Of a DNA stretch of 64,000 nt, positions 3,275 through 55,393 are shown piece by piece. This DNA is from Phenylobacterium sp. (lineage in GTDB: Bacteria > Pseudomonadota > Alphaproteobacteria > Caulobacterales > Caulobacteraceae): assembly GCA_017991675.1 (NCBI GenBank), contig JAGOQB010000006.1, positions 62,001 to 126,000 of the forward strand, in the 5' to 3' direction. Position 1 is the stretch's first letter. Each line of letters begins with the position of its first letter. Below the pieces are notes generated by a model. The model was not told the DNA's origin. It saw nothing but the letters and a program-made list of their open reading frames with translations, and did no database searches. Made by a program: the position numbers and the translations under genes.

Positions 3275-3275
<1 letters not shown>
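2841..3275 (-). CDS. Small four-helix membrane protein, unknown function
   Basis: The 144-residue product is highly hydrophobic, with about four membrane segments (near residues 18-40, 58-80, 88-108 and 122-141) and a short polar loop (PDGGAVSIAGLD) after the first. The layout resembles small DoxX- or DUF4345-like membrane proteins, but no diagnostic motif is visible. The ATG at 3275 shares one base with the stop of the sulfatase gene (TGATG), so translation is probably coupled and the two are co-expressed. A role in sulfatase export or handling of the released product is possible but speculative. The much longer frame running through to 4334 is only the shadow of the sulfatase. Confidence 0.7.
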
Positions 3276-7337
<4,062 letters not shown>

Positions 7338-31129: not shown

Positions 31130-31144
31130 TGTCGATTATTGACA
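31130..31144. promoter_or_regulatory. Operator candidate TGTC-N7-GACA (copy 2)
   Basis: TGTCGATTATTGACA is the exact reverse complement of 30133-30147; with one more base on each side the arms become AGTGTC and GACACT. It lies 64 bases before the TBDR start. An identical 15-mer twice within 1 kb in front of functionally linked genes is unlikely by chance. Confidence 0.65.
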
Positions 31145-31207
31145 CTTTACGATCAGGCGCATACACGCCTTCCAGTCGCCCGAGAGCGACCCAGGACAAT
31201 TTGGGGG

Positions 31208-34817: not shown

Positions 34818-37800
34818 TCAATCAGCCTCGAACAAATAGCGCCCGGATCTGAGCTCGAATATCCAGTGATCGTCTTCCCTTCCGATCGACCTGGCACGGG
34901 CGAACACGGACGCTCCGATTTCCCGAGCGACCGCTCCGGACTTCACGGGCATGCAAAGCCGGGCGGACACGTTCGGCGGAATGGTCACGCCAAGCGATAG
35001 ACGCCCGTCTGGCCGTTGGCGCCAGTCAGTCGAAATTCTTCCGCGGACGCTGTCATAGTATCCCCCGCCCCGCCGCACGCGCGGGTCGATCAGCGGACAA
35101 ATCCGCACGCGGCGGAAACCGGGTTCCAGGGGCGCGATCCCGGCGACGCGCCGAAAGAGAAAGCCGCCGACAGAGGCCAGTGCATAGTGATTGCGCGATG
35201 AGCTTCGCGGGCGGTTGTCGCTGTTCCAGGCTTCCCAGATCGCGGTGGCTCCTTGAGCCGCCATATAGCCCCAGGATGGATAGTCCTTGCGCAGGAGAAG
35301 GCTGTAGGCCTGCTCGGCGTAACCGGTATCGGCCAGCACCTCGAGGCTTTGGCTGGTTCCCATCACGCCGGTCGACAACGCTCCGCCACGGCGCACGATA
35401 TCATCGGCCAGATTCCTGGCGGCCGCCGCGCGCAGCTCATCGGGGATGAGCTGATGGAACAGAGACAGGACATATCCCGTCTGGCTGCCGTTGCCGATCA
35501 CGCCGTTGTCCTGGACGAAATTCCGACGGAACGCCGCGACGATTTCGGAGCGCAGATCGCGGTAATGCGCCGCCTCGGCCTCTCGCCCCGTCGCGTCCGC
35601 CATCTCGCCCATGCGCCCGGCGGCGGCGGCCCACAATGCGGTGGCGACGAGGTCCTTTGGCGTCGTCGGCTTGCCCGGATTGTCGTTGTCGGAATCGACC
35701 GACAGCCAGTCTCCGAGATCGCGCCCGCGGCCGTTTCGCCAGACGAAATCGGAATTGTCTCGCCCGATCGCCTCGCAGAAGCGCGCCATCGCAGTCCAGT
35801 TGGCCTCGATCACCCCGGTGTCGCCGTAGTGCCGCCATGCGACCCAGGGCAGCGTCACCCCGCCATCACCCCAGCCGGGGGTGGATGACTGAGCCCCGTT
35901 TCCCGTCTCCGCGCGCCCCGCGCTTGCCGGCGCGGAAGGAGGCAGCCGCGCGGCCGGCGCGAAGTCTGGAAAGGCGCCGCCGGCCGCCTGCCCGTCACGA
36001 ATGTCGGTCATGAAACGCCGGGTAAAGGCGGCGACATCCATATTGAACGCCGCCGTGTCCCAAAACATGTTGGCGTCGCCTAGCCAGCCCAGCCGCTCCG
36101 AGCGCTGCGGGCAATCGGTGGGGATGCCCATGAAATTGGAGCGCTGCGTCCACAGGATGCTCCGCTGGAGCCGTTCTATGTCAGGCTGCTCGATGGCAAG
36201 GCCGCCCGTGAAAGCCAGATCGCTGTGGACGACGACGCCCTCCAGGTCTCGCAGGTCGGGCGTCCCCGGGAACCCGGTGACCTGGACGTAGCGAAAGCCG
36301 TGATAGGTGAAGTGCGGCTCGAACACCTCCTCGCCGCCGTCGCCCCGCAGGATGTAGGTGTCGGTCGCCTTGGCCACGCGAAGGCTCGAGCGATCGACAA
36401 GGCCGTCAGGCCCCAGCAGTTCGGCGAACGCGAGTTCAACCTTTTCGCCCCGTGCGCCGTTCACGCGAAGGCGGCACCAGCCAGCGAAATTCTGCCCGAA
36501 ATCGAAGACGTGGACGCCTGGCTCCGGCCGGGAGACCACACGCGGCGACAGGACTTGCCGGCGCCGGATGGGCGGGCTGACCTGCGCGCTGAGCGCTATG
36601 CCCGGCGACGGCGTTTCCGCGATCCGCCACCAGTGCGCATCGTCGAACCCGGGAGTCGACCAGCCGGGCTGAGCCAGCCGCGCGTCATAGGTTTCACCGT
36701 CGTAGATTTCCGAAGCGATGATCGGCGATCGGGCGCCGCGCCATTCCCCGTCCGAAGCGACAACTTCCCGCGATCCGTCGGCATAGGTGAGATCCAGCTG
36801 CAGGATCAGGCTGCGGGGATGCGCCGCCCACGGATAGCGCCCGGCGAATACGGAATAGCTGGCGTACCAGCCGTCCCCGACCATCGCACCGATGACATTG
36901 TCGCCCTCGCGGATGCGGTCGGTGACGTCGATCACCCTGTAGTTGGCTCGTTTTCGGAAGTCGGTGCTCTCCGGAGCGAGCACGGCGTCGTCGGCCGGCT
37001 TCCCATTGAGGTACGGCTCGTAGGCGCCAAGCGCCGTCACATAGAGGCGGGCTCGCGCGACCCGGCTCCTGGCCCTAAAGCGGCGACGCATAAGGATCGC
37101 CGGCTGCGGCGGCCAGGGGTGCGAACGCGGCGCGGCCACCGGCGCTGCAGGCGACCAGCGCCGGTCGTCATGCTCGGGCATGTTCCAGTCGGCCGCCGCC
37201 TCGGCCGAGGATTTCCATTGGGCCTGGCCAAGGCGCATCACGCCGCCATCGGCCAGCCTCACCTTGATGAAGCAGGCGAGCGCGGAGGCTTCCGCTCCAA
37301 GGAGCTTGGCCATGAAGGGCGCCGGCGTACCGACCGCGACCGCGATGACATGGCTGCCCGCCGACAGCGCCACGACCAGCTTCGCTGCGGGCCTGGGTCC
37401 ATTGGCGCCGGCCGAGGTCGGAACCGGAACCGGCGCGCCGTCGACCCAGCATTGCGCGTCGGCATATGTCGCCAGCAAGATCGTCGCCTCGCCCGGCTGG
37501 TCCAGCGACAATCGCATCCGATACCTGGCCGGCGCGCCCTCGGACGTCGGCGCGCCCGTCACCCAATCGAAACCGGCCAGACGATCGTCGCGCAGCTCCG
37601 CGTCTTCCGCCGCCAGCCAGCGCGCCGCGCCCCAGTCGCCCGCGTCGAGAAGGCCCATCTCCCAGCAGCTTCCGGCGCTGTAGGGGATCACGGCGCCGGC
37701 TTCGTCCCATATCCGGACCCGCCAATGGCATGCGTCACGCGAGGCGAGCGGCGAGCCGCCATAGGCGATGGCCACCGACTCCGCCGACGACACCCGGCCG

Positions 37801-38108
37801 CTGTCCCACAAATCGGCGACCCCGGCCTCGAGCGCGTTCGAACTGCTGGCGACCTGAATTTGGTAGGCCGACTGCGCGGCGCCCCGGCGGCTCGACTCCA
37901 GCCGCCACGACAACAGCGGCTGGGCCGTTTCCACACCCAGCGGCCGTTCGACATAGTCGGTGCGCAACCCGACGATGCGGATCTCCGACCGGTCACGCGC
38001 CGTCGCCGCAAGGGGCGCCGACGCCGCGGCGGTGGCCCCGACCGCACCGAGAAGCTTCCGGCGGCTGATGTCGAGCGTCACCGCGCTGGGCTCACGGATG
38101 CGGGTCAT
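34818..38108 (-). CDS. GH78 alpha-L-rhamnosidase, exported
   Basis: The 1096-residue protein releases terminal alpha-L-rhamnose from glycans or glycosides. A Tat signal (SRRKLLGAVGATAAASA, residues 14-30) is followed by an N-terminal domain opening IVGLRTDYVERPLGVE, a Bac_rhamnosid_N region (ARLYVTALGAYEPYLNGK), a central beta domain, the (alpha/alpha)6 catalytic barrel from about residue 650 with DCPQRSERLGWLGDANMF (the Asp/Glu cluster holding the general acid and water-binding residues), and a C-terminal beta domain ending ELRSGRYLFEAD. Length is normal for GH78. ATG at 38108 overlaps the upstream TBDR stop by 4 bases (ATGA), so receptor and enzyme are made together. It is the only glycoside hydrolase seen in the window. 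Confidence 0.92.
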   Translation of the reverse strand: MTRIREPSAVTLDISRRKLLGAVGATAAASAPLAATARDRSEIRIVGLRTDYVERPLGVETAQPLLSWRLESSRRGAAQSAYQIQVASSSNALEAGVADLWDSGRVSSAESVAIAYGGSPLASRDACHWRVRIWDEAGAVIPYSAGSCWEMGLLDAGDWGAARWLAAEDAELRDDRLAGFDWVTGAPTSEGAPARYRMRLSLDQPGEATILLATYADAQCWVDGAPVPVPTSAGANGPRPAAKLVVALSAGSHVIAVAVGTPAPFMAKLLGAEASALACFIKVRLADGGVMRLGQAQWKSSAEAAADWNMPEHDDRRWSPAAPVAAPRSHPWPPQPAILMRRRFRARSRVARARLYVTALGAYEPYLNGKPADDAVLAPESTDFRKRANYRVIDVTDRIREGDNVIGAMVGDGWYASYSVFAGRYPWAAHPRSLILQLDLTYADGSREVVASDGEWRGARSPIIASEIYDGETYDARLAQPGWSTPGFDDAHWWRIAETPSPGIALSAQVSPPIRRRQVLSPRVVSRPEPGVHVFDFGQNFAGWCRLRVNGARGEKVELAFAELLGPDGLVDRSSLRVAKATDTYILRGDGGEEVFEPHFTYHGFRYVQVTGFPGTPDLRDLEGVVVHSDLAFTGGLAIEQPDIERLQRSILWTQRSNFMGIPTDCPQRSERLGWLGDANMFWDTAAFNMDVAAFTRRFMTDIRDGQAAGGAFPDFAPAARLPPSAPASAGRAETGNGAQSSTPGWGDGGVTLPWVAWRHYGDTGVIEANWTAMARFCEAIGRDNSDFVWRNGRGRDLGDWLSVDSDNDNPGKPTTPKDLVATALWAAAAGRMGEMADATGREAEAAHYRDLRSEIVAAFRRNFVQDNGVIGNGSQTGYVLSLFHQLIPDELRAAAARNLADDIVRRGGALSTGVMGTSQSLEVLADTGYAEQAYSLLLRKDYPSWGYMAAQGATAIWEAWNSDNRPRSSSRNHYALASVGGFLFRRVAGIAPLEPGFRRVRICPLIDPRVRRGGGYYDSVRGRISTDWRQRPDGRLSLGVTIPPNVSARLCMPVKSGAVAREIGASVFARARSIGREDDHWIFELRSGRYLFEAD

Positions 38109-40465
38109 TGGCCGAAGCTGTACCTCAGCCGGACGCCGACCATCCGCGGCTCTCCGTAGTTGACCGTCGTGAACCCCTGGGTCGAATAGAGCACCTGACC
38201 GCCGTTGGTGTAGACCTTGTTCGCGGCGTTGGTGACGTAGATCGACGCGCCCAGCGCCGAGCCGCCGATATCGTTCCAGTCCAGCGTGAAGTTCAGGAGC
38301 CCGTAGCTGGGTTGAAACGCCATCGCCGCCGGGACCAGGTTCGCCGGTGTTCCGACCATCGTCCGCGAGGTCTCGCTTTGCCAGTCCCAGCGGCCGGAAA
38401 GCGAGATCGTCCCCATGCCCGCGGCCAGCGGCGCCTCGTAGTGCGCGTTGATCCCGTAGGTGAATTCCGGACGGGTGTAGAGAACCGTCCGCCGAAGCGC
38501 CGCGCCATCGACGCCTGCCTCGAAGGACGTGTAGTCGAAGTTCAGCCATGCGGCGTAGGCGCCGATCGACAGGTTCTCGGTCGGACGGATCGCACCCTCG
38601 AACTCGGCCCCCCAAACCCGCGCGCCCGCGGAATTATTGGTGATCGCATAGGCCGTCGGCTGGCCCGGCGCGCCGGCCACCGACTGCGAGCCCTGAATGC
38701 TGCTGTAGTCCTGATGATAGATCGCCGCGTTCGCCCTGACCGGTAGGTCGCCGGCGCGGAAGTCGGACTTGAGGCCCAGTTCGACGTCGGTGACGTATTC
38801 CGGCCCGTAGTTCAGCAACGCCGGCGTCGGCGCCTGGTTGTTGAAGCCGCCGGTTTTGAACCCGCGCCGCGAGGCGAGATACACCATCGAGCTTCTGCCG
38901 AAGCTGTAGTCCAGCCCCAACGTCCAGGTCGGCGCACGGAACGTGGCCTCGCGCACCGTCACCGTGCAGGGGCTAGTGGTGCACGTCCCATTGCCGTCGA
39001 CCGCCTGCGTCTCCTGATGCGGCCGGTCCCAGGTATAGCGGCCGCCGGCCGTCACCTTCAGCCCGTCGAGGACTGACGAGAGATCATAGGTCGCCTGGGC
39101 GTAGACCGCCGTGCTCTTGTCGCGCGTCTTGACGCTGACGGCGCCGGCCTTGCCGTAGGAGACGGTCTGGAACGTCGCGAACGGCGTCGGATTGTTCGAA
39201 TGATACAGGCCGCCGACCCAGGTCAGCCGATCGCCCAGCGAGTTCCCCTGCAACTGCGGCTCGAAGGTGTAGAGCTTCTGCTTGCTGGGGTCGATGACCG
39301 CAGTGAAGCGGTTGTAGATCGGAAACTGATTTCCGTCGTAGTCGACCGTCCGATCCGATGCCGCATCAGTAAAATTGAAGATGTTTCGGAAGGTTACGTC
39401 GTCGGACAGGTCGATCGAGGTGATGTTCGTCAGGCTCGTGAGGCGGGATCTCGTGAACGTGTCGATATCAATGGGGATCTGACGGCGGATGCCGAGCTTC
39501 TGCTGCGCCTCGAACTGAGCCACCAGCTGCGGATAGGCCTTTGCAGCGCGCCCCGATGGATCGAGGGCGAGCAGCAGCGCGGACGAACCGTTGTTGCGCG
39601 ACTTGTAGTGGCTGACGATCAGTTCGTTCCTGAAGCCGTCGGTCGGTTTGAAGGTCAGGCTCCCGCGCACCGCCCAGAAGTTTCGGTCGTCGAGGTCGAG
39701 GCCGTCCGGGTGGCTGGGCGTGGCCATGGTTTGCGTGTAGCCGTCGCGCGCCTGTGCGTTCACCGCGATGCGGGCGAGCAATTTGTCCTCGACCAGCGGA
39801 AGGTTGAGCGCGCCGCTGATCTCACGATTGTTGAAGCTGCCGTAGCCGAGCGACAGATCCCCGCCGAACTCGTTCCCCGGACGTTTCGATTGAAACAGGA
39901 TGGCGCCGCCGGTGGTGTTGCGCCCGAACAACGTCCCTTGCGGCCCCTTGAGAACCTGGATGTTCTCCAGGTCGTAGAACAATCCCGGACCGCCGACGGT
40001 CGAACCCGTGCCGGAGCCGGCGTTGTAGGGGATCAGCGCTTCGTCGAAATAGATGTTCACCGATCGCTGCCCCCGGATGCCGAGGATCAGGTAGTCCTGG
40101 AACAGGCCCATCATGCTGAGCGAGGGCGTGATCGCCTGGAGCGCGCGGAAATCCTGGACGTTGGCGCGCCGGATCTGCTCTGCGGAAAATACCGTGACCG
40201 ACAAGGGAACGCGCTGAGCGCTCTCCTCCCGCCGACGCGCCGTGACGACGACCTCGCCGAGGTCGGCGGAAGGGTCGCCCTCCGCGCTGGCCGCCTCGCC
40301 GGCGGCTTCAGGCCGCGTGTCGCTGACGATCGGCGCAGCGCCGGCCGCTCCATGCGGAGCATCCGCCTCAATGGCGCCGTCGCCAGGTGTCGCGGCATAG
40401 GCATATGCGGGCGATAGGATGGAAACAGCCGCCGCGGCGGCCATGAAAGCTTGTTTGGACGTCAC
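38105..40465 (-). CDS. TonB-dependent receptor coupled to the rhamnosidase
   Basis: The 786-residue receptor has a signal peptide ending near YAYAATPG (residue 25), a longer than usual Ala/Glu-rich linker before the TonB box DLGEVVVTARRREE, plug motifs IRGQRSVNIYFDE and IQVLKGPQGTLFGRNTTGG, and a barrel ending VGVRLRYSFGQ. The start is a GTG at 40465 with GAGGGG upstream. Because it is translationally coupled to GH78, it probably imports rhamnose-containing oligosaccharides or glycosides. A divergent GntR-family gene and a palindrome at 40527 lie upstream. Confidence 0.9.
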   Translation of the reverse strand: MTSKQAFMAAAAAVSILSPAYAYAATPGDGAIEADAPHGAAGAAPIVSDTRPEAAGEAASAEGDPSADLGEVVVTARRREESAQRVPLSVTVFSAEQIRRANVQDFRALQAITPSLSMMGLFQDYLILGIRGQRSVNIYFDEALIPYNAGSGTGSTVGGPGLFYDLENIQVLKGPQGTLFGRNTTGGAILFQSKRPGNEFGGDLSLGYGSFNNREISGALNLPLVEDKLLARIAVNAQARDGYTQTMATPSHPDGLDLDDRNFWAVRGSLTFKPTDGFRNELIVSHYKSRNNGSSALLLALDPSGRAAKAYPQLVAQFEAQQKLGIRRQIPIDIDTFTRSRLTSLTNITSIDLSDDVTFRNIFNFTDAASDRTVDYDGNQFPIYNRFTAVIDPSKQKLYTFEPQLQGNSLGDRLTWVGGLYHSNNPTPFATFQTVSYGKAGAVSVKTRDKSTAVYAQATYDLSSVLDGLKVTAGGRYTWDRPHQETQAVDGNGTCTTSPCTVTVREATFRAPTWTLGLDYSFGRSSMVYLASRRGFKTGGFNNQAPTPALLNYGPEYVTDVELGLKSDFRAGDLPVRANAAIYHQDYSSIQGSQSVAGAPGQPTAYAITNNSAGARVWGAEFEGAIRPTENLSIGAYAAWLNFDYTSFEAGVDGAALRRTVLYTRPEFTYGINAHYEAPLAAGMGTISLSGRWDWQSETSRTMVGTPANLVPAAMAFQPSYGLLNFTLDWNDIGGSALGASIYVTNAANKVYTNGGQVLYSTQGFTTVNYGEPRMVGVRLRYSFGQ

Positions 40466-40796
40466 TGGGGTGCCCCTCTTGCTGAGCCCCCTGTTAGCGC
40501 GCCATCCTAACGCTTATATGACATCGGTTATCCTACAACCGGATAACTGAGGAGATGTCCGCCGCCAACCGCGCGCCGACGCTTGGAGATCGTGCCCGAA
40601 TTGCATTGCAGGACGACAATATGTAGGGCCCTGAGGCGGCGTCAGACGGCGCTGCTGCGCCGAACGGCCGCGACAGCGGACTCCCTGCGTTGCTGACCTC
40701 CCGCCGCCTGGCCGCCCGTCGGCCCCGACGCCGAAACGACGACGCTTGCGTCAGCGCGACAGAGTTGAAAGCCTCGCCCGAGGACAGGACGACGAC
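40466..40796. promoter_or_regulatory. 331-base divergent regulatory region with palindrome GTTATCC-N7-GGATAAC
   Basis: The only clear structure is the perfect inverted repeat at 40527-40547, arms GTTATCC and GGATAAC with 7 bases between, 62 bases upstream of the TBDR start. It is a good candidate binding site for the divergent GntR regulator. The rest (40550-40790) shows no gene or RNA signal. Confidence 0.5.
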
Positions 40797-41513
40797 ATGA
40801 AATTCAGCGTGCCCGAACGATCGCCGCGCCTCCCCGCCCAGGTCGCCAACGCGATCATGGAGGAAATCCGGGAGGGGCGGATCAAGCCCGGCGACAGGCT
40901 GCCGACCGAGCAGTTTCTGGTCCAGCACATGGGCGTAAGCCGAAACGTCGTGCGGGAGGCCATGGCCCAGCTTCGCGCCGTCGGCGCGGTGTACTCACGA
41001 CAGGGGATCGGCACCATCGTCGCCGATCCCTCGGCCTCCGCAGGACCGTCGCTTCAAATCCCGCAACTGGATTCCCAGGCGCTTAATCAGGCCTACGAGA
41101 TCAGGGCGATCCTGGAGACGAAGGCCGCCGGCTTGGCCGCCTTGCGGGCGAGCCCCGAGCAGATCGCCGAGATATCCGACACGCTGCACCGCATGGACGA
41201 CGAGCGCTGGGAAGCGTCCGGCGTCGACGCCGATATCGACTTTCACCTCGCCATCGCCCGCGCATCGGGGAACGTCTTCATCGCCGACACGATCAAGTCC
41301 CTCGTCGTGCCGATGCGGCAAACCGTGGTCACCACGCTGCGGCGTTCAGGGACCCTGGTCGGCGAGATCAAATCGATCACGGTCAGGGAGCATACCGCGA
41401 TCCGCGACGCGATAGCCTCCGGCTCGGCCGAAACCGCGCGGCGCGCGATGGCGCACCACATCTGCAACGCCGCGGCGCGTCTTGGTTACGACCTGTCGAT
41501 GCTCGATCACTGA
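40797..41513 (+). CDS. GntR-family regulator with FCD domain
   Basis: The 238-residue protein has a GntR winged HTH (LPAQVANAIMEEIREGRIKPG, GVSRNVVREAMAQLRAVGAVYS, RQGIGTIVA) and an FCD domain with metal-site residues: an Asp-x-x-x-His pattern in DADIDFHLAIARASGN and later His residues in REHTAIRDAI and AMAHHICNAA. The complete set suggests binding of a metal and a sugar acid, as in UxuR/ExuR-like regulators of hexuronate use. ATG at 40797 with AGGACAGGA upstream. Divergent from the TBDR-rhamnosidase operon, which it probably controls. Confidence 0.88.
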   Translation: MKFSVPERSPRLPAQVANAIMEEIREGRIKPGDRLPTEQFLVQHMGVSRNVVREAMAQLRAVGAVYSRQGIGTIVADPSASAGPSLQIPQLDSQALNQAYEIRAILETKAAGLAALRASPEQIAEISDTLHRMDDERWEASGVDADIDFHLAIARASGNVFIADTIKSLVVPMRQTVVTTLRRSGTLVGEIKSITVREHTAIRDAIASGSAETARRAMAHHICNAAARLGYDLSMLDH

Positions 41514-41872
41514 CGGTCGTGGCGCTCGGCCAGGTTCGCGCTGGAGCCGTGGCGCTCCAGCGGAACCCGTTCCAGAATCTCCAGGCCCATCGGCCGGATG
41601 GGCTCCACGTCCATCTCAGTGCGCCTGATCGACCGGCCGGCCTTGCCCTCATGGGCGTCCCAGGCGCTGTTGACGATGTAGGCGTAGAGCGCCTCGGCGT
41701 TGGCGTCCGGCATGTCCTCGGCGTGGTGCTGCATCTGCGCGCCATTGCCGAGCAAGGCCCAGTCGGTGTTCCGCGGCGCCCGCTCCGAGCATCCCGCGAT
41801 CGTCAGGCCCAAGGCCGCAACGACGCCGACCGCCGAGACGCCGGGCCGTGCTCTTGAGCTTTCGATACCCAA
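41507..41872 (-). CDS. Small putative lipoprotein, unknown function
   Basis: The frame gives 121 residues from a TTG at 41872, with a hydrophobic segment and lipobox-like LTIAGC (C28). The mature part (about 93 residues) has DWALLGNGAQMQHHAEDMPDANAEALYAYIV, with paired histidines, then MDVEPIRPMGLEILERVPLERH. No family recognised. It begins 28 bases after the stop of the sulfatase gene and is likely the last gene of that transcript. The start is uncertain: no ATG/GTG with a good ribosome-binding site is in frame. The end overlaps the convergent GntR gene by 7 bases. Confidence 0.55.
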   Translation of the reverse strand: MGIESSRARPGVSAVGVVAALGLTIAGCSERAPRNTDWALLGNGAQMQHHAEDMPDANAEALYAYIVNSAWDAHEGKAGRSIRRTEMDVEPIRPMGLEILERVPLERHGSSANLAERHDRQ

Positions 41873-41899
41873 GGAGCAGCGAGCAGGCCCCGCTTCACG

Positions 41900-43537: not shown

Positions 43538-43585
43538 GCGCGATTGTCCTGACTAGCTGGTGAACCTTCGGTATGCCGCCCCGGA

Positions 43586-43597
43586 GACAACGTTGTC
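43586..43597. promoter_or_regulatory. Palindrome GACAACGTTGTC, LacI operator candidate (copy 1)
   Basis: A perfect 12-base palindrome with the central CG typical of LacI/GalR operators, 49 bases upstream of the sulfatase ATG and 117 bases before the LacI start. A further TTGTTGTCG half site follows at 43601-43609. An identical palindrome is at 48182-48193. Confidence 0.75.
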
Positions 43598-43713
43598 AAT
43601 TTGTTGTCGACTTGGACTCTATGTCAGCGGCGACCGCCCACGCGACCGCGCATTGCCTTGCATTGCCCGAAAGCTCGAATACTCAGGACCTGAAGGCAGC
43701 CGACAAGAGACTC

Positions 43714-44736
43714 ATGAGCCAGACCTCGCCGCCCGCCCGCAGGCCAACGATCAAGGAGGTCGCCAAGCTGGCCGGGGTCTCGTTCAAGACCGTGGCCCGC
43801 GTCGTCAACAACGAGCCCAGCGTCACGGCCGAGCGCCGCGAGGCGGTTCACAAGGCGATGACCATGCTCAACTACGCGCCGAACGTTTCGGCGCGGCAGC
43901 TCGCCAGCAAGCGCTCCTATCTGTTGGCCCTGGTGTTCGGTGGCGGCGGCCTCGACAACTTCGCCAGGGCGCAGACCGGGGCCATCCGCCGTTGCCGCGA
44001 GGCCGGCTACCAGCTGATCGTTGAAGAGGTCGTGCCCGGCTCCGAGACCGAGGTCGCCACACGACTGCACAGCGCCCGCGTCGATGGCGTCATCGTGCTC
44101 CCGCCGCTCTCCTTCCACCCTCCCCTCCTGGAGGCGCTTCGCGAGCGCGCCCTCCGCTACGCGCTGATCTCGCCGGACGGCGGCGATCCCATCGCCTCAA
44201 GCGTCGGCCTCGACGACAAGCTGGCCGCCGAGCAGATGACCTCGCGGCTCATCGCGCTCGGACACCGGGACATCGGATTCATCTCCGGCGGCGATCGGCG
44301 CGCCTCGACCTATCGCCAGATCGGCTATCGCGCGGCGCTCGAGACGGCGGGCATTCCGCTGCGCCCTGACCTGGAGGCCGAGGGCGACTTCAGCTTCAAG
44401 AGCGGCGAAGCCGCCGCGCGCCAGCTCCTCGGCGGCCCCGTGCGGCCAAGCGCGATATTCGCGGCTAACGACGGCATGGCGCTCGGCGTCATGGTCGCGG
44501 CGGCGCGCCTCGGACTTCGGGTGCCCGAGGATCTCTCGGTGGCCGGCTTCGACGACATGCCCTACGCCAAGCTGGTCTGGCCGGAACTGACGACCGTTCG
44601 CCGTCCCTTGCGCGAAATGGCCAGCACCGCCGTCGATCTGCTGCTGGAGCCCGAGGACGGCCGAGCGCCGCACCACGTCGTCCTGGACTTCGAGCTGATC
44701 GAGCGCGGCTCGACCATGCAACGGACCGCGCCATGA
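43714..44736 (+). CDS. LacI-family transcriptional repressor
   Basis: The 340-residue protein has the LacI N-terminal HTH (RPTIKEVAKLAGVSFKTVARVVN, with hinge helix NYAPNVSARQLASK) and a periplasmic-binding-protein-like sugar-binding domain (LLALVFGGGG, LISPDGGDPI, ALGHRDIGFISG, AIFAANDGMALGVM, VAGFDDMPYAKLVWPELTTVRRP). I start at ATG 43714 rather than further upstream because this places the HTH at the usual position and leaves the operator outside the gene. It overlaps the formylglycine enzyme gene by 4 bases. The operator copies at 43586 and 48182 make it the likely local regulator of both sulfatase promoters and a TBDR. Confidence 0.93.
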   Translation: MSQTSPPARRPTIKEVAKLAGVSFKTVARVVNNEPSVTAERREAVHKAMTMLNYAPNVSARQLASKRSYLLALVFGGGGLDNFARAQTGAIRRCREAGYQLIVEEVVPGSETEVATRLHSARVDGVIVLPPLSFHPPLLEALRERALRYALISPDGGDPIASSVGLDDKLAAEQMTSRLIALGHRDIGFISGGDRRASTYRQIGYRAALETAGIPLRPDLEAEGDFSFKSGEAAARQLLGGPVRPSAIFAANDGMALGVMVAAARLGLRVPEDLSVAGFDDMPYAKLVWPELTTVRRPLREMASTAVDLLLEPEDGRAPHHVVLDFELIERGSTMQRTAP

Positions 44737-45647
44737 GCGCCCCGCGCGGCATGCGCCGCCTGGACGGGGGTGAGTTCGTGATGGGTTCGGAGCGGTTCTA
44801 CCCCGAGGAGCGCCCGCTGCGGCCGGTCCGCGTCGACCCGTTCTGGATCGACGAGACCCCGGTCACCAACCGGCAGTTCGCCGCCTTCGTCCGCGCCACA
44901 GGCCACCGAACCCTGGCCGAGATCCCGCCCGATCCGAAGGATTATCCGGGCATGCCGCCCGAGATGGCGCGCGCCGGCTCGCTCGTCTTCCAGCCGACCG
45001 CCGGGCCGGTCTGGACGGGGGATCCGAGCCAATGGTGGGAGTTCAAGTTCGGGGCCTTCTGGCGCCGGCCGCTGGGGCGGCCAGGCCCGATGGCGCTCGA
45101 CGATCACCCCGTGGTTCACCTCGCCTACGAAGACGCCGCCGCCTACGCCGAATGGGCCGGCAAATCGCTGCCCACGGAAGCCGAATGGGAGTTCGCCGCC
45201 CGCGGCGGCCAGACCTCCGAGTTCGCCTGGGGCGACGAACTGGCGCCCGGCGGGGCTATGCTCGCCAACTACTGGCAGGGCGAGTTCCCCTGGCGCAATT
45301 CCAAGCTCGACGGCTGGGAGCGGACCTCCCCGGTCGGCAGCTTCCCGCCCAACGGCTACGGGCTGTCCGACATGATCGGCAATGTCTGGGAGTGGACCTG
45401 CGACTGGTACGCCGACGCTGGCGACCTTGTCCCGGCAAGCCCGTGCTGCGCCCCGAAGGGCGGGATCATGGAGGCGAGCCACGATCCGGCCACGCCCCAG
45501 GTCATGATCCCCCGAAGGGTCATCAAGGGCGGCTCCCACCTGTGCGCCGAATCCTACTGCCAGCGCTATCGGCCGGCCGCCCGCCACCCGCAGGCGATCG
45601 ACTCGTCCACCAGCCACATCGGCTTTCGCTGCGTGGTCCGGGACTGA
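44733..45647 (+). CDS. Formylglycine-generating enzyme (sulfatase-modifying factor)
   Basis: The 304-residue protein converts the signature cysteine of sulfatases to formylglycine using oxygen and copper. FGE-sulfatase fold motifs appear in order: GGEFVMGSE, PVTNRQFAAFV, SLPTEAEWEFAARGG, FPPNGYGLSDMIGNVWEWTCDWY, and the terminal RVIKGGSHLCAESYCQRYR to HIGFRC. C271 and C276 in CAESYC are the copper-binding pair, nearly the same numbering as the Streptomyces enzyme (C272, C277), so this is a true FGE rather than a general SUMF1-like protein. No signal peptide: modification occurs before export. ATG overlaps the LacI stop (ATGA), so regulator and maturase are co-expressed and the maturase serves the local sulfatases. 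Confidence 0.93.
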   Translation: MSAPRGMRRLDGGEFVMGSERFYPEERPLRPVRVDPFWIDETPVTNRQFAAFVRATGHRTLAEIPPDPKDYPGMPPEMARAGSLVFQPTAGPVWTGDPSQWWEFKFGAFWRRPLGRPGPMALDDHPVVHLAYEDAAAYAEWAGKSLPTEAEWEFAARGGQTSEFAWGDELAPGGAMLANYWQGEFPWRNSKLDGWERTSPVGSFPPNGYGLSDMIGNVWEWTCDWYADAGDLVPASPCCAPKGGIMEASHDPATPQVMIPRRVIKGGSHLCAESYCQRYRPAARHPQAIDSSTSHIGFRCVVRD

Positions 45648-45680
45648 GAAAAATGGCGGGCGCTCCGGAAAGCGCCCGCC
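45648..45680 (-). terminator. Intrinsic terminator of the minus-strand TBDR
   Basis: On the minus strand, a 10-base stem (GGCGGGCGCT and complement, loop 6) followed by ATTTTTCTC. It lies between convergent genes and may also help the FGE transcript. Confidence 0.75.
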
Positions 45681-45693
45681 AGGTGGGGAAACC

Positions 45694-48120
45694 CTAGAAC
45701 TTCATGCCCAACGTCACGCCGTAGAGCCGCTCGGCGTCGCGCGGGATGTAGGCGCCCACCTCATTCGGAAACTGCGGACTGGCCAGGGTCGTGTTGTGGC
45801 CCATGCCGACGTAGTAGGTCTCGTCCAGCAGGTTGCGCACGAACAGGGTGGCGCTCAGCCCGCGAACCACGTCACGCACCCCAAAGCTCAGATTGACCAT
45901 GGTGTAGGCGTCTTGCCGCAGCAGCGGATCCTGCTCGACCGCGAATTGCTGCTCGGTCTGGTAGGTGACGTCCGCCTGCACGAAACCCGACCAGTCGCTC
46001 CCGGCGAACTCCCGTTCGTACCTCGGCGACAGGCTCAATCGCCATTCGGGCGTGCTGGGCAGGCGCCCGTCCCGGATGTCCTGCCTCGGCGCCCCGGTCA
46101 CCAGGACGCCGGCGGCGTTCGGCAGGCGCGCGCGATAGCAGGTGTTGGTCGGGAAATCGCCCGTCAGCACCGGCGCATTGAGCTGGAACTGCAGCGGACA
46201 GTTCAGGCCGTCCACCTCGATCACGGCCTTGGTATAGGTCAGTGATCCCGACAGCGAGAAGTTCTGGCTCGGCCGCCAGTCCCCTTCCAGTTCGAAGCCC
46301 TTGGTCGTCGTCGACCCCGCGTTGGTCTGGACGTACTGGATCACCCCCGTCGTCGGATCGGAACGGTTCGCCTGGATCTGCAGGTCCGTGTACTTGGCGT
46401 AGTAGACCGCCAGGCTGAACGTCAGACCCGCTTCCGGCAGCCGCCCCTTCAAGCCCGCCTCGTAGGCGTCGACATGCTCGGGCATCACCGGCGGGTCGTT
46501 GACGAAGTCCTCGGTCATCTCGGTGCCCAGGCCCAGGCCCTTGTAGCCCCGGGCATAGGTCGCATAGGCCTGCATGTCGGGGCTCAACCGATACTGCAGG
46601 CCGATCTTGCCGGTCGCCGCCGTATCGTCTGCGGTCCGGGTCCCGATCGAACGGGTTCCGGTCGGCCCCTGTAGAGGCAGGTCGCCAGGGTTCAGCTGCA
46701 AGCCCGGCCGATTGCCGATCACCGTCACTTCCTCGCGCTGCACGCGCGCGCCGGCGATGAGCTTCAGGTTCTCGACCAGCTCGAACTCGGCCTGGCCAAA
46801 GGCGGAGATGTGGTCGCTCTTGAGCTTGGCGCTGTGATAGCCCGAGCGCGTGACATAGGTCGCGCAGGGCTGGCCGAGGACCAGGCCCGTTCCCGTGCAG
46901 GTGTCGATCGCGCGCTTGAAGTCGCGATGGATCAGCACGTCCGAGTAGTAGAGGCCGGCGACGTACGACAGCCGCTGGCCGGGATTGTTGGCGATCCGCA
47001 GCTCCTGGCTAAAGTTGCCGATGTCGACCGGGCCGTCGTTGACGCTGAAGCGCGAATTGCCGTTGCTCGGCTGCGACCCGAGATAGATCGGCCGCGGCGT
47101 GTAGAGGCCATCGACATCGATCTGGCCGTGCTCCTTGTACTGCTGATATGCGCTGAGCGAGGTCAGCGTGCCCCAGCCCAGATCGTAGTTCGCCTCGAGG
47201 GAGACCATCGCCTGGTTGGTCTTCGAAAGCGTCTGGACGTCCGAGCTGATCGAGCGATTGCTGGGCGATGCGACGATCGGCGCGATGAGCTGGGCCACGA
47301 CCGGGTTCGGGGTCGAGACCAGCACCGGCCGCCCGATGGTGCCGACGAACATCCGATAGTCGCCGGTCAGCAACAGGCTCAGATCCTCGGTCGGCTCCCA
47401 TTCCAGCTTGCCGCGAACTCCGAAGCTCTCGAACCCGCCCTCGTCCGCGCCGGTGCGGACATTGCTGATGTAGCCGCCGACGTCGTTGTAATAGGCCGAA
47501 ATCCGCCCCGCGAGCGTGTCGGAGATCGGACCGGTCACGCTGGCCTTGATGCGGTATTCGTCGTGAGTGGCGATCGTCGCCTCGGCATTGCCGCCGAACT
47601 CATGCTTCGGCCGCGCGGTCACCAGTTGCACGACGCCGGCGGTCGCGTTCTTGCCGAACAGCGTGCCCTGGGGTCCGCGGAGCACCTCGACCCGCTCGAG
47701 GTCGGCGAAATCGGTGAGGCTTTGGGCCGGACGAGCCATCACGACGCTGTCGATCACCAACGAAACGGAGGACTCGACCCCCTGGCCGAACAACGAGGTG
47801 CCGATCCCGCGAATCCGGAACGAGCTGTTGGCCGGCGTACTGCCCGCCTGGAAGGTCAGCGACGGCGCCGCCCGCACCAGTGACGCCGTATCGGTGATGT
47901 TCTTGGCCGCCAGCGTCTCGCCGCTGACCGCCGTCACCGCCACCGGCACGTCCAGCAAGCGCTCTGTGCGCTTCTGCGCCGTCACCAGCACTTCCTCGAC
48001 TTCCACGCCGCCGTCGACCGGCTGCGCCGATGCGGCGCCCGCCAGGGCGCAGAGCGCCGCCCCGGCCATCCATGCGGCCGTCCGGCCACGAGCAAACTGG
48101 TGTGTGAGATCCTTCGCCAC
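45694..48120 (-). CDS. TonB-dependent receptor of the sulfatase locus
   Basis: The 808-residue receptor has a signal peptide ending at GAASAQPV (about residue 30), TonB box VEEVLVTAQKRTE, plug motifs FRIRGIGTSLFGQG, VEVLRGPQGTLFGKNATAG and VQLVTARP, and a barrel ending YGVTLGMKF. I place the start at GTG 48120, because GGAGGGG is 7 bases upstream; a TTG at 48135 is also in frame. The LacI operator candidate is 62 bases upstream, shared with the divergent sulfatase. It probably imports sulfated or desulfated oligosaccharides. Confidence 0.9.
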   Translation of the reverse strand: MAKDLTHQFARGRTAAWMAGAALCALAGAASAQPVDGGVEVEEVLVTAQKRTERLLDVPVAVTAVSGETLAAKNITDTASLVRAAPSLTFQAGSTPANSSFRIRGIGTSLFGQGVESSVSLVIDSVVMARPAQSLTDFADLERVEVLRGPQGTLFGKNATAGVVQLVTARPKHEFGGNAEATIATHDEYRIKASVTGPISDTLAGRISAYYNDVGGYISNVRTGADEGGFESFGVRGKLEWEPTEDLSLLLTGDYRMFVGTIGRPVLVSTPNPVVAQLIAPIVASPSNRSISSDVQTLSKTNQAMVSLEANYDLGWGTLTSLSAYQQYKEHGQIDVDGLYTPRPIYLGSQPSNGNSRFSVNDGPVDIGNFSQELRIANNPGQRLSYVAGLYYSDVLIHRDFKRAIDTCTGTGLVLGQPCATYVTRSGYHSAKLKSDHISAFGQAEFELVENLKLIAGARVQREEVTVIGNRPGLQLNPGDLPLQGPTGTRSIGTRTADDTAATGKIGLQYRLSPDMQAYATYARGYKGLGLGTEMTEDFVNDPPVMPEHVDAYEAGLKGRLPEAGLTFSLAVYYAKYTDLQIQANRSDPTTGVIQYVQTNAGSTTTKGFELEGDWRPSQNFSLSGSLTYTKAVIEVDGLNCPLQFQLNAPVLTGDFPTNTCYRARLPNAAGVLVTGAPRQDIRDGRLPSTPEWRLSLSPRYEREFAGSDWSGFVQADVTYQTEQQFAVEQDPLLRQDAYTMVNLSFGVRDVVRGLSATLFVRNLLDETYYVGMGHNTTLASPQFPNEVGAYIPRDAERLYGVTLGMKF

Positions 48121-48181
48121 GCGCTTCCCCTCCAAGGCTGCAATGCGCCCACTGACCGTTCAGACGGCTGCAGTCGTTCTT

Positions 48182-48221
48182 GACAACGTTGTCTTTTTGA
48201 CAATCATGTAATCGTTGTCAA
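48182..48221. promoter_or_regulatory. LacI operator candidate (copy 2) plus adjacent spaced inverted repeat
   Basis: GACAACGTTGTC at 48182-48193 is identical to the copy at 43586. Immediately after, TTGACAA (48197-48203) and TTGTCAA (48215-48221) form a second inverted repeat with an 11-base spacer built from the same half site. The pair lies between the divergent TBDR and sulfatase starts, so one repressor could shut both. Confidence 0.72.
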
Positions 48222-48261
48222 GCCACTTGGATTTCGCCGCCGCGGCGGGCTAGGGAGTCAC

Positions 48262-49803
48262 ATGCCGTCCGTAATTCGCCTTGCTCAGACCTCGCTGCTC
48301 GCCCTCAGCGCGGGCCTGTCGCTCGCTATCGCCCTGCCCGTCGCGGCGGCCCCGGCGCCGGCTGCGACATCAGCCGCCCCCGTCGCCCAGCGGCCGATGA
48401 ACGTGCTGCTGATCATGAGCGACGACCTCGGCGCGCGGTTCGGCGGCTACGGCTTTCCAGAGGTGAAGACGCCCAATCTCGACCGGCTGGCGCGCGAAGG
48501 CGTGCTGTTCGAGCGCGCCTACACCCAGTTCCCGCAATGCGCCCAGAGCCGCTCGTCGTTCCTGACCGGCCGCCGCCCCAACGCCACGCGGGTATTCGAC
48601 CTCAAGACCGATTTCCGCGCCGCCCTGCCCGACGTGGTCACGCTGCCGCAGTATTTCCGCCAGCAGGGCTACTATGCCGGTCGGGTCGGGAAGATCTTTC
48701 ACCAGGGCGTGCCCACCCACATCGGAACCAGCGGTCCCGACGACGCGCCGTCCTGGACCGAGGTCGTCAATCCGCGCGGCCGCGACAAGGACGCCGAAAT
48801 CGCCGGCCGGCTCAAGAACCTGACCCCTGGCATCCCCTACGGCGCGGCCTGGGCCTATCTGGACGACGAGGGCAAGGACGCCGAGCAGACCGACGGCAAG
48901 ATCGCCGACGAAACGGTCAAGATGCTCGAAAGGGCCAAGGATGGGCCGTTCTTCATCGCCGCCGGCTTCTATCGCCCGCATGTCCCCGACGTCGCGCCCA
49001 AGGCCTATTTCGACCTCTACCCGCCCGAGAAGATCCGGATCGAGGACGCCCCGCCCGAACATGCCGCGGTCCGCCCGCTGGTGACCTCGAATATGTGGCC
49101 GGCCAATTACGACGCGCTCGAGGCCGAGCGGCGCAGGATGATGCAGGCCTACTACGCCTCGACCACCTTCATGGACGCCCAGGTGGGTCAGGTGCTCGAC
49201 GCGCTCGACCGGCTGGGCCTGAAGGACAACACCATCGTCGTCTTCATGAGCGACCACGGCTACATGCTGGGCGAGCATGGGCAGTGGCAGAAGAACGCCC
49301 TCTGGGAGGCCTCGCTGCGCACGCCGCTGATCATCCGCTCGCCCGGCGCCCGCGGAAATGGCGCAGCCTCGCCCAAGCCGGTCGAACTGCTGGACATCTA
49401 TCCGACCCTGGTCGAACTGGCCGGGCTGCCGGCCAAGAGCGGCCTGGAGGGCGCCAGTCTCACGCCCCTGCTGGCCGCGCCGCGCAAGGCCAGCTGGGAC
49501 CGCCCCGCCTATTCCCAGGTCCAGGGCGGGCGCAGCGTGCGGACCGCTCGCTGGCGCTACACCGAATGGGAAGGCGGCCGCCTCGGCGCCTCGCTCTACG
49601 ACATGGTCGCCGATCCCAGGGAGCTGCGGAACCTCGCCGGCGAACCGAAATACGCCGCCACCGTCAGGAAGCTGCAGGCTCTGCTGCCAAACGAGACGGT
49701 AGAGCCTCGCGGGCCGGCCATGATCCTCTACGATCGCGCCGCAGGCCTGGCCCGGTTCGAGACCTATGCCGACGCCCTGGCCAAGGACGGGGAAAAGAAG
49801 TGA
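48262..49803 (+). CDS. Sulfatase, iduronate-2-sulfatase-like, exported
   Basis: The 513-residue enzyme has a signal peptide to about residue 30. NVLLIMSDDLGARFGGYG (47-64) and KTPNLDRLA match iduronate-2-sulfatase-like sulfatases. The active-site segment is CAQSRSSFLTGRRPNATRVFDL, where C93 should become formylglycine; human iduronate-2-sulfatase has CAPSR at this place, so the usual Pro/Ala/Ser is Gln here. Later motifs GFYRPHVPD and MSDHGYMLGEHGQW are intact and typical of this subgroup. ATG at 48262 with GGGAG upstream. The next sulfatase overlaps its stop by 4 bases. It probably removes a 2-O-sulfate from a uronic acid or similar sugar; this is inferred from the subgroup. Confidence 0.88.
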   Translation: MPSVIRLAQTSLLALSAGLSLAIALPVAAAPAPAATSAAPVAQRPMNVLLIMSDDLGARFGGYGFPEVKTPNLDRLAREGVLFERAYTQFPQCAQSRSSFLTGRRPNATRVFDLKTDFRAALPDVVTLPQYFRQQGYYAGRVGKIFHQGVPTHIGTSGPDDAPSWTEVVNPRGRDKDAEIAGRLKNLTPGIPYGAAWAYLDDEGKDAEQTDGKIADETVKMLERAKDGPFFIAAGFYRPHVPDVAPKAYFDLYPPEKIRIEDAPPEHAAVRPLVTSNMWPANYDALEAERRRMMQAYYASTTFMDAQVGQVLDALDRLGLKDNTIVVFMSDHGYMLGEHGQWQKNALWEASLRTPLIIRSPGARGNGAASPKPVELLDIYPTLVELAGLPAKSGLEGASLTPLLAAPRKASWDRPAYSQVQGGRSVRTARWRYTEWEGGRLGASLYDMVADPRELRNLAGEPKYAATVRKLQALLPNETVEPRGPAMILYDRAAGLARFETYADALAKDGEKK

Positions 49804-51671
49804 CGAACCGGCTCACCAGACGAACCGCGCTTGCGACAGCGGCCGCCGCGGCGGCCGGCCCGGCGATGGCGTCGCCCGCGGCACGCCCGAACATCCTTTG
49901 GCTGGTCAGCGAGGACAACAATCCGCTGATCGGCGCCTATGGCGACCCGCTGGCCCGCACGCCGACCATCGACGCCTTGGCCGCCAAGGGCCTGCTCTAC
50001 CGCAACGCCTACTCCAACGCCCCGGTCTGCGCGCCCTCGCGCTTCGGCATCCTGACCGGCCTCTATCCGGAATCCTGCGCCCCGGCCGACCACATGCGGG
50101 CCAAGGCGTCGCTGCCCCGTGACCTGAAGACCTATCCGGAACTGCTGCGCGCCGCCGGCTACTACTGCGCCAACAACGCCAAGACCGACTACAACAGCGA
50201 CGTCGACCCCGCGGCGATCTGGGACGCCTCGGGCGCCAAGGCCCACTGGCGCGGCCGCCCGGCCGGCAAGCCGTTCATGGCGGTGTTCAACTACGAGACC
50301 ACGCACGAGTCGCGCCTGTTCCTGAAGCCGACCGAGGGGGCGGTGAAGCCCGCGCAGGTGCGTGTCCCGGCCTACCTGCCCGACACCCCGGCGATCCGCA
50401 GCGATTTCGCCAGCTACTACAATCTCATGGAGCGGATGGACGGCCAGTTGGCTGAGCGTCTGGCGGAGCTGGAGGCTGACGGCCTCGCGGACGACACCAT
50501 CGTCTTCTACTATTCCGACAACGGCGGCTCGCTGCCGCGCAGCAAGCGCTACTGCTACGACGAGGGCCTGCGCTGCGCGCTGGTCGTCTACCTGCCGCCG
50601 AAGTGGGCGCACCTCGGCCGGCGCCCGCCCGGTTCGACGGTGGAGGAGCCGGTCAGCTTCATCGACCTCGCCCCGACCCTGCTGTCCCTGGCCGGGATCG
50701 AGCCGCCGCGAGCGATGCAGGGCTCGGCCTTCCTCGGCCGCCGGGCCCGGCCGGCCAAGCCCTACGCCTTCGGCATGCGCGGGCGGATGGACGAGCGCTA
50801 CGACTTCGTGCGCACGGTCACCGACGGCCGCTGGCGCTACATCCGCAACTACATGCCTCACCGCCCCTGGGGCATGCACGGCGCCTTCGAATGGTTGGCC
50901 AAGGGCTATCAGGACTGGGAGCGCGCCTACCGCGCCGGATCGCTGAACGCCGACCAGAGCCGCTTCTTCCAGACCAAGCCGTTCGAGGAGCTCTACGACC
51001 TCTCGAGCGACCGCGATCAGGTCCGCAATCTCGCCGCCGATCCGGCCGCCCAGGGCCAGCTCGCCGCCCTGCGTAACGCCCTCGACAGCCACATGCTGGC
51101 CATCGTCGACAATGGCTTCATTCCTGAGGGCATGGCGCCGGAAGGCTATGAGGCCAGCCGCAGCGCCGCCTATCCGCTGGCCAAGGTCATGGCGCTGGCC
51201 GGCCTGGCGGCGCACAGGCGGCCGGAAAACCTGCCACTGCTGCGCAAGACGCTCGCCGATCCAAACCCGGTGATGCGCTACTGGGCCGCGACCGGCCTGC
51301 TGATCCTGGGCGGCGCGGCTGCGGAGGCCCGCGCGCCGCTCGCCGCGGCCATGCGCGAGGAGCCGATCGCCCAGGTTCGCGTGGTCGCCGCCGAGGCCGC
51401 GGCCGGCCTGGGCGAGGCCGAAGCGGTGAGCATCCTCGCCGCCCTCGCCGGCGAGCCGCAGCCCTGGCAGGTCCAACTGCAGGCGCTGAACGCCCTCACC
51501 GCGCTCGGCGAAACGGCCCGTTCGGCCCTGCCCGCCCTTGAGCGCGCCGCTCAGAGCCAGCAAGAATATGTGCGCAACGCCGGCCGCTACATGTCGACAG
51601 TGCTGAAGGGCGAGTATCGCCCGGACTATCCGATCTTCGATCTTACGCGCATGACAGGCCGCGCCGGCTAG
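49800..51671 (+). CDS. Sulfatase of the heparan-N-sulfatase-like group with C-terminal HEAT-type repeats
   Basis: The 623-residue protein starts at a GTG overlapping the previous stop (GTGA) with GGGGAAAAG upstream. The N-terminus LTRRTALATAAAAAAG is a Tat-like signal. NILWLVSEDNNPLIGAYGD (31-49) and C77 in CAPSRFGILTG define a sulfatase; the SEDN wording is characteristic of sulfamidase-like members. FYYSDNGGSLPRSKRYCYDEGLR carries the later metal site. From about residue 475 the sequence becomes helical Ala/Leu-rich repeats (LRKTLADPNPVMRYWAATGLL, and two or three more), looking like HEAT repeats, possibly for substrate or partner binding. It belongs to the same LacI-controlled operon as the upstream sulfatase. 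Confidence 0.88.
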   Translation: MTNRLTRRTALATAAAAAAGPAMASPAARPNILWLVSEDNNPLIGAYGDPLARTPTIDALAAKGLLYRNAYSNAPVCAPSRFGILTGLYPESCAPADHMRAKASLPRDLKTYPELLRAAGYYCANNAKTDYNSDVDPAAIWDASGAKAHWRGRPAGKPFMAVFNYETTHESRLFLKPTEGAVKPAQVRVPAYLPDTPAIRSDFASYYNLMERMDGQLAERLAELEADGLADDTIVFYYSDNGGSLPRSKRYCYDEGLRCALVVYLPPKWAHLGRRPPGSTVEEPVSFIDLAPTLLSLAGIEPPRAMQGSAFLGRRARPAKPYAFGMRGRMDERYDFVRTVTDGRWRYIRNYMPHRPWGMHGAFEWLAKGYQDWERAYRAGSLNADQSRFFQTKPFEELYDLSSDRDQVRNLAADPAAQGQLAALRNALDSHMLAIVDNGFIPEGMAPEGYEASRSAAYPLAKVMALAGLAAHRRPENLPLLRKTLADPNPVMRYWAATGLLILGGAAAEARAPLAAAMREEPIAQVRVVAAEAAAGLGEAEAVSILAALAGEPQPWQVQLQALNALTALGETARSALPALERAAQSQQEYVRNAGRYMSTVLKGEYRPDYPIFDLTRMTGRAG

Positions 51672-54649: not shown

Positions 54650-54749
54650 GCACCACCGGCTAGGGCCTTTTCCGGATCGCCGCAACCAAGCCGTGAACGG
54701 CGCGCTACCGCCTTGGGAAGAGAACTTGGGGGAGAAATGGAGCAGCCCG

Positions 54750-55295: not shown

Positions 55296-55393
55296 TTCGA
55301 ACAAAAAGTATGTTGACGGGCTCCACGTCAGCCAGGGCATAGCTGGGAAAACGCCCTGGCATGGGACCTCGGCGGATCATCTGGCGAGGCGAC

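Follow-up and report, generated by a model that had tools for sequence, protein, structure and literature searches.

Background

Carbohydrate utilization loci containing TonB-dependent receptors (CUT loci) of the Caulobacter and Xanthomonas type bring together a TonB-dependent receptor (TBDR), carbohydrate enzymes and a local repressor, and have no SusD. For ulvan, the available portions of PMC9096561 describe S1_7 and S1_8 enzymes as xylose-2-sulfatases (structure 6HHM being P18_S1_7) and S1_25 as a rhamnose-3-sulfatase; in the corresponding portions of PMC8360166 the endo and exo roles of S1_7 and S1_8 are reversed. For lambda-carrageenan, S1_8C is a galactose-2-sulfatase according to the accessible part of PMC12549532.

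The locus considered here (positions 34818-51671) belongs to a stretch of 64,000 nucleotides from Phenylobacterium sp. (assembly GCA_017991675.1, contig JAGOQB010000006.1, forward-strand positions 62,001 to 126,000), referred to below as the window. An earlier note had read it as a single TonB-dependent system for a sulfated, rhamnose-rich glycan, possibly ulvan. Our analysis instead indicates that 34818-51671 probably comprises two regulons for uptake across the outer membrane, side by side and each under its own switch: one with a GH78 rhamnosidase, a TBDR and a GntR/FCD regulator (34818-41513), and one with a LacI-family repressor, a second TBDR, three sulfatases and a formylglycine-generating enzyme (FGE; 41900-51671).

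A probable LacI switch for the sulfatase half

All genes that the earlier note had listed (GH78, two TBDRs, GntR/FCD regulator, LacI, FGE and three sulfatases) were recovered with Pfam, with two adjustments: the GH78 start was moved from 38615 to 38108, and the gene that ends at 51671 encodes the HEAT-repeat sulfatase rather than the second TBDR (TBDR2, 45694-48135). The features of the right half are as follows (ORF, open reading frame).

41900..43537, minus strand: S1 sulfatase, S1_11-like, motif CSPSR, used as marker of the module (Pfam Sulfatase and SGSH_C; nearest solved structures)
43584..43599, no strand: predicted LacI-type operator GAGACAACGTTGTCAA, between the sulfatase and LacI genes, upstream of 43663
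43663..44736, plus strand: LacI-family repressor (Pfam; start by codon score, longest ORF from 43573)
44733..45647, plus strand: formylglycine-generating enzyme (Pfam FGE-sulfatase, E 8e-77; 4-nt overlap with lacI)
45654..45681, minus strand: terminator-like hairpin of 12 pairs, between FGE and TBDR2
45694..48135, minus strand: TBDR2 (Pfam), inherited together with the sulfatase module
48180..48195, no strand: predicted LacI-type operator TTGACAACGTTGTCTT, between TBDR2 and S1_7
48262..49803, plus strand: S1_7-type sulfatase, motif CAQSR (Pfam Sulfatase and SGSH_C; nearest 6hhm, then human iduronate-2-sulfatase)
49800..51671, plus strand: S1_8-type sulfatase, motif CAPSR, with C-terminal HEAT repeats (Pfam Sulfatase and HEAT; nearest S1_8C 9bba)

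The operator consensus, TTGACAACGTTGTCAA, was derived from the intergenic palindromes of the module in three congeners (G317, G009 and G002), with the window excluded. Since the consensus stems from congeners only, its sites in the window constitute an independent test. With up to three mismatches, the window holds two sites, against 0.02 expected; both belong to the right half, and they also came out on top of a weight-matrix scan of the window (scores of 23.4 and 26.6), followed by a score of 15.2 beside the second site. Across 198 kb of other stretches of the same genome, no weight-matrix score exceeded 15.3. The TTGACAACGTTGTCTT site overlaps the first hexamer of a promoter-like sequence, and the palindrome stands in the module intergenic regions of G317, G009 and G002 as well. 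Palindromic operators at regulated promoters that accompany their regulator in relatives are the mark of a LacI regulon, and this is what the sequences of the module suggest. Hairpins like the one between FGE and TBDR2 number six in the 8 kb scanned, against 3.5 expected.

At two mismatches, the consensus finds four sites in the own genome, two in the window and two in a second locus (G000:C6:407-418 kb), which holds another pair of LacI genes (43-44% identical to the window LacI) with a variant operator. This second locus is conserved between the own genome (L126, G000:C6:399000-418999) and G317 (L128), and includes the two paralogous LacI genes and, as read by eye, TBDR-like, glucokinase-like and MFS-like genes; TGATAACGTTGTCA is an example of its operator variants.

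The rhamnosidase half

The left half has its own regulator and its own candidate operator:

34818..38108, minus strand: GH78 alpha-L-rhamnosidase (Pfam Bac_rhamnosid6H, E 2e-103; nearest structure 3w5m)
38105..40465, minus strand: TBDR1 (Pfam, Plug domain)
40526..40547, no strand: inverted repeat GGTTATCC-N6-CGGATAAC, candidate FCD operator, between TBDR1 and FCD
40797..41513, plus strand: GntR/FCD regulator (Pfam; start by codon score, longest ORF from 40746)

The coupling of the rhamnosidase to a TBDR, claimed previously, is supported, and the GH78 ATG overlaps the TBDR1 stop by 4 nt. Compared with 3w5m (SaRha78A), the enzyme has the GH78 domains and retains both catalytic Glu columns (presumably E636 and E895), with Ala in place of the presumed CBM67 ligand Asn (N180); its signal appears twin-arginine-like by eye. 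The best plasmid relatives of TBDR1 are sphingomonad TBDRs at 34% identity. The inverted repeat differs from the LacI operator and is present as a single copy in the window. The FCD regulator has a candidate metal site (read by eye) and scores under every NCBIfam cut-off among the models listed.

Five annotated neighbours of GH78 comprise two GH2 proteins, one GH28, one beta-helix protein and one peptidase, and the GH78 neighbourhood of C. rhizosphaerae contains a rhamnonate dehydratase, a tannase/feruloyl esterase and a GH1. The GH78 half would suit plant-type rhamnosides better than seaweed. To its left, 31139-34737 (plus strand) encodes a further TBDR and, after it, a DUF1254/DUF1214 protein, outside both regulons as far as seen, and an additional sulfatase gene is found towards the window's left end (3275-5068, minus strand), 30 kb away from the locus.

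Occurrence of the two halves in related genomes

The two halves have different distributions. GH78 was searched in 100 genomes (the own genome, 59 congeners and 40 others of the order), with nothing in 58 of the 59 congeners and only a weak fragment in G009; across the order it is present in 17 of 398 genomes, and a contig search returned one locus (L016, 37%, in a metagenome-assembled genome (MAG) of Bacillota). The 41900 sulfatase occurs in 11 of the 398 genomes at E 1e-100 and, at the same threshold in a class-wide draw of 385, in the own genome only; beyond that draw, sulfatases of this type are present on sphingomonad plasmids. G317 has all six module genes (sulfatase 84%, LacI 79%, FGE 88%, TBDR2 80-85%, S1_7 83%, S1_8 66%), and in G317, G009 and G002 the module stands without GH78 and without the FCD gene; the second regulon therefore exists without the first.

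A table of 14 loci was compiled around sulfatases at least 61% identical to that at 41900 (own genome, G317, G009, G002, G190, G249, G415, G420, G368 and the plasmids of US6-1, RAC03, V4, TomTYG65 and THN1), using stretches of 15-40 kb; for G420 and G368 the contig was short or came to an end. Two of the 14 (own genome and G190) have GH78 in the vicinity of the sulfatase. FGE was found in ten (partial in G415, at 51% in G368), LacI in nine (at 37-39% in five of these), TBDR2 (at least 48%) in six, S1_8 (at least 59%) in five, S1_7 (at least 61%) in four and GH3 in five; one GH3 was compared with solved structures, the nearest being a beta-glucosidase. Sulfatase relatives of about 46-56% were left out because they form another clade; the seven neighbourhoods of such relatives that were searched (G041, G032, G012, G051, G204, G248 and Sphingobium yanoikuyae) contain no GH78. 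Conversely, tblastn of the GH78 neighbourhoods of 12 genomes (14 stretches of 20 kb) and of C. rhizosphaerae found window-like sulfatases in G190 only.

Several observations nevertheless weigh against a division into two regulons. Within the genus the module is uncommon, with a close ortholog in two of 59 congeners (G009 and G002) plus G317. Genome-wide, TTGACAACGTTGTCAA at three mismatches occurs 11 times in the own genome against 7 for the reversed control (12 against 6 in G317, 11 against 3 in G009 and 9 against 5 in G002); with counts barely above the control, lone matches at three mismatches mean little, and the case for the operator rests on position. GH78 and the sulfatase occur together in 4 of the 398 order genomes against 0.47 expected (p 0.0006), or in 3 against 0.40 with the own genome excluded (p 0.005), although these p values ignore kinship. 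Moreover, G190 has a row of GH51, GH3, GH78 (43%), GH29, two ECF/FecR genes (by eye), a TBDR, a sulfatase with CarboxypepD_reg, a 41900 ortholog (71%) and FGE. This genome lies outside the window genus, in the sister genus g20, and is apparently a Caulobacter, judging from the g20 rhamnonate dehydratase (95-96% identical to that of Caulobacter rhizosphaerae); its locus is the best evidence for the single-system view. Finally, the two halves could respond to a common inducer even with different operators, and the unit may reach further right, given that an esterase of BD-FAE type lies close to the module both here (53774-54793, minus strand) and in G317 (L096:14691-15557), the two being 28% identical. 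Further along, the product of 55361-56650 (plus strand) has a serine beta-lactamase fold (Pfam Beta-lactamase, E 1e-72), and its homologs (36-37%) lie beside sulfatase relatives of about 52% in G032, G012 and G051.

The rival view is one functional locus for a rhamnose-containing sulfated glycan, not necessarily ulvan, in which desulfation would be followed by trimming with GH78. The genes adjoin, G190 groups GH78, GH29, GH3 and GH51 with sulfatases and FGE, the co-occurrence values point the same way, and rhamnosidases of marine Verrucomicrobiota MAGs lie amid sulfatases, as far as the accessible text of PMC8857213 goes. We still consider such a locus unlikely here. The halves have separate predicted operators, and 12 of the 14 module loci lack GH78 (for two of these, the contig is short or breaks off). 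In G249 and G415 only distant GH78 proteins (32-34%) exist, on other contigs; when GH78 is required to be at least 40% identical, co-occurrence falls to 2 against 0.30 expected (p 0.03), and to 1 against 0.25 without the own genome (p 0.23). In addition, G317 (99% complete) and G002 (96%) bear the module without RhaM and GH88/105, and a GH78 was not found in either. Of the single system proposed earlier, then, the TBDR-linked rhamnosidase and the several sulfatases with a repressor stand, whereas their union is not supported, given the predicted LacI operator of the sulfatase half and the GH78-free module of three congeners. In view of the G190 row, the co-occurrence counts and the Verrucomicrobiota parallel, a sulfated glycan with both rhamnose and fucose deserves consideration as the substrate in G190, but is a minority possibility for the locus in the window.

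Sulfatases, maturase and candidate substrates

The three sulfatases fall into different subgroups, as had been proposed, namely S1_11-like, S1_7 and S1_8, the classes being assigned by nearest solved structure and not by SulfAtlas. The structures nearest to the 41900 protein are 7p24, 9s8y, 7ebp, 5g2v, 9s03 and 7lha, with 228-254 bits to those of S1_11 type against 193 bits to the S1_25 structure 6HR5. The S1_11 label rests on 7lha and on 7p24 and 5g2v, both of which we take to be of S1_11 type; 9s8y, 7ebp and 9s03 carry no class. 7lha is so classed via its name (exo-L-galactose-6-sulfatase) and the available portions of PMC9096561. Recognition in S1_11 involves a His plus Asp/Arg triad, according to the accessible part of a review (PMC10154612). 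The 41900 protein and nine relatives retain DKR (10 of 10 aligned), but instead of the C-terminal His of the S1_11-type structures there is a YYWEW/FPQTPTT stretch, the counterpart of YYWEW being YFWEY or YYWER in three more distant relatives. The His of RHxGIR is Phe in eight of the ten aligned proteins and His in G032 and G012. The protein is therefore best called S1_11-like, a label that comes without a substrate.

The description of one member as iduronate-2-sulfatase-like holds for 48262-49803, whose nearest structures are 6hhm and then human iduronate-2-sulfatase. Its formylglycine motif, CAQSR (48538-48552), stands where CxPxR is usual and is shared by the G317 and G002 orthologs; a 62% relative on pLA3 of N. 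pentaromativorans has CAPSR and a 39% relative in G012 has CGPSR. The literature searched makes no mention of CAQSR together with sulfatase. The S1_8 sulfatase may start at a GTG (49800) overlapping the S1_7 stop, 49866 being favoured by codon score, and its signal appears twin-arginine-like by eye.

The FGE is a true one, as stated earlier: its nearest structures are annotated FGEs, and the cysteine pair (LCAxxYC) is retained in all eight full-length copies. At 59% identity or more, full-length matches number two in the own genome and one each in G317, G009, G002, G022, G190 and G249. The second own copy (60%) lies outside the window (G000:C23:4978-5880, L139). In G317, G009, G190 and G249 the sole full-length FGE sits in the sulfatase locus, and in G002 it is on a different contig from the module. 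All seven genomes also have shorter FGE-like fragments, and the pieces on G002:C240 sum to most of a domain. The own genome (G000, a 3.0 Mb draft) gives 20 sulfatase-domain matches above the Pfam cut-off, some of them split, corresponding to about 18 genes.

Ulvan or its oligomers, suggested previously, are a highly improbable substrate. Sulfatases of the ulvan classes S1_7 and S1_8 and a GH78 are present (class by nearest structure), the solved structure nearest to the window S1_7 is the ulvan enzyme P18_S1_7 (6HHM), and the Formosa agariphila pathway has S1_7, S1_8, S1_25 and GH78 in what is available of PMC9096561 and PMC8360166. However, GH88/GH105 were not found in the own genome, in the near-complete G317 (99%), in G002 or in G415, and are present in G009, G190 and G249; the own-genome negative is weak alone because the genome is 71% complete. 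RhaM, sought as a rhamnose catabolism gene elsewhere in the genome, follows the same pattern, being found neither in the own genome (71% complete) nor in G317. Furthermore, the 41900 sulfatase is closer to S1_11-type structures than to S1_25, and the S1_8 sulfatase is nearest to S1_8C of the lambda-carrageenan pathway. In agreement with the earlier note, Pfam recognised none of the ulvan lyases PL24/25/28/40 among the 45 window ORFs scanned, a result for the window only and for the families that Pfam models, which may not be all.

Scavenging of a sulfated amino-sugar glycan, whether similar to heparan sulfate or of another kind, is only slightly less improbable. According to the accessible parts of PMC5066984 and PMC10154612, S1_7 (IDS), S1_8 (SGSH) and S1_11 (GlcNAc6S) include heparin/heparan enzymes. 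Pedobacter heparinus employs S1_8, S1_9 and S1_11. Yet GH88 was not found in the own genome (71% complete), the 41900 protein keeps DKR but lacks the C-terminal His of S1_11 structures, and the solved structures closest to the S1_7 and S1_8 proteins are those of enzymes acting on algal glycans. It is likewise very unlikely that the module serves mainly to release sulfate for assimilation from small sugars that carry it, with carbon being secondary. No GH or PL gene lies between the module genes of G317, G009 and G002 or among those flanking genes that were annotated, as sulfur scavenging would have it, but the regulator is a sugar-type LacI rather than one of the sulfur-starvation type, and GH3 adjoins in five of 14 loci. 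That same GH3 partnership suggests that the second regulon serves a beta-linked sugar more likely than a rhamnan.

Proposed mechanism and implications

Returning to two regulons, we infer transport, induction, substrates and periplasmic location as follows. In the first, TBDR1 would take up a rhamnose-capped compound from which the coupled GH78, in the periplasm, would free L-rhamnose, with the divergent FCD regulator in control. In the second, LacI would keep two divergent promoter regions shut until a sugar signal arrives. Once derepressed, a sulfated oligosaccharide would enter via TBDR2, FGE would mature the three Cys-type sulfatases (S1_11-like, S1_7 and S1_8 with HEAT repeats), these would take sulfate off the imported sugar, and glycosidases encoded elsewhere would complete its breakdown.

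A maturase, sulfatase and TBDR regulon inherited together is a modest novelty. More speculatively, and with a low probability, it may represent a glycosidase-free ‘desulfation cassette’, in which one LacI switch makes (i) a transporter, (ii) three sulfatases of different regioselectivity and (iii) their maturase on demand, which has been exchanged between Caulobacteraceae and megaplasmids of sphingomonads, and which, where its FGE is the sole full-length copy (G317 and G009), would place the maturation of all Cys-type sulfatases in the cell under one sugar signal. The titles and abstract openings of the literature searched contain no description of such a cassette. The sole-FGE reading, if true, raises the question whether a substrate switches sulfatase maturation. 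More generally, the split separates two functions that adjacency alone had fused, and the named operators allow it to be tested. The 41900-type sulfatase may also serve as a marker for sulfated-sugar use in SusD-less alphaproteobacteria, some of which carry it on large plasmids.

Comparison with known systems

Unlike PULs (polysaccharide utilization loci) of the Bacteroidota type, the window has no SusC/SusD pair: no SusD was found among its 45 ORFs scanned with Pfam, and TBDR2 reaches 67 bits against the SusC/RagA model, whose cut-off is 368, so that the earlier description of the locus as SusD-less stands. With the ulvan PUL of Formosa agariphila, as presented in the available portions of PMC8360166 and PMC9096561, it shares the S1_7, S1_8 and GH78 classes; it differs in the absence of SusC/D, in having no lyase in the ORFs scanned, no S1_25 assigned and two regulators, and in that GH88/105 were not found in the genome (71% complete). 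From the lambda-carrageenan locus of Pseudoalteromonas (accessible part of PMC12549532) comes S1_8C, whose structure is the closest solved one to the HEAT-repeat sulfatase (292 bits), whereas the window ORFs scanned include no recognised galactosidase and no S1_15 was assigned.

Close counterparts are on plasmids of Novosphingobium pentaromativorans US6-1 (pLA3), Sphingobium sp. RAC03 and Sphingobium sp. V4, with 41900-type sulfatases of 68-69%. US6-1 also has S1_7 (62%) and S1_8 (60%), but LysR and no LacI at that locus; RAC03 and V4 have LacI (40%) and a TBDR of TBDR2 type (49%), RAC03 also FGE (67%). Unlike the window, the plasmid loci have GH3 and, in the stretches read, no GH78. No operator-like palindrome precedes the plasmid genes of V4, THN1 or the US6-1 sulfatase/LysR pair, and RAC03 and TomTYG65 have other palindromes, unlike the window operator. 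Within 12 kb, TomTYG65 also has genes annotated as beta-xylosidase and as beta-galactosidase, and the sphingomonads with 41900-sulfatase orthologs on large plasmids (L151-L155) include one isolated from an algal phycosphere and one from Lake Taihu.

The locus resembles CUT loci in its TBDRs, carbohydrate enzymes, local repressor and lack of SusD, and departs from them in that one of its regulons has sulfatases as sole enzymes, with the maturase FGE in the operon of the repressor.

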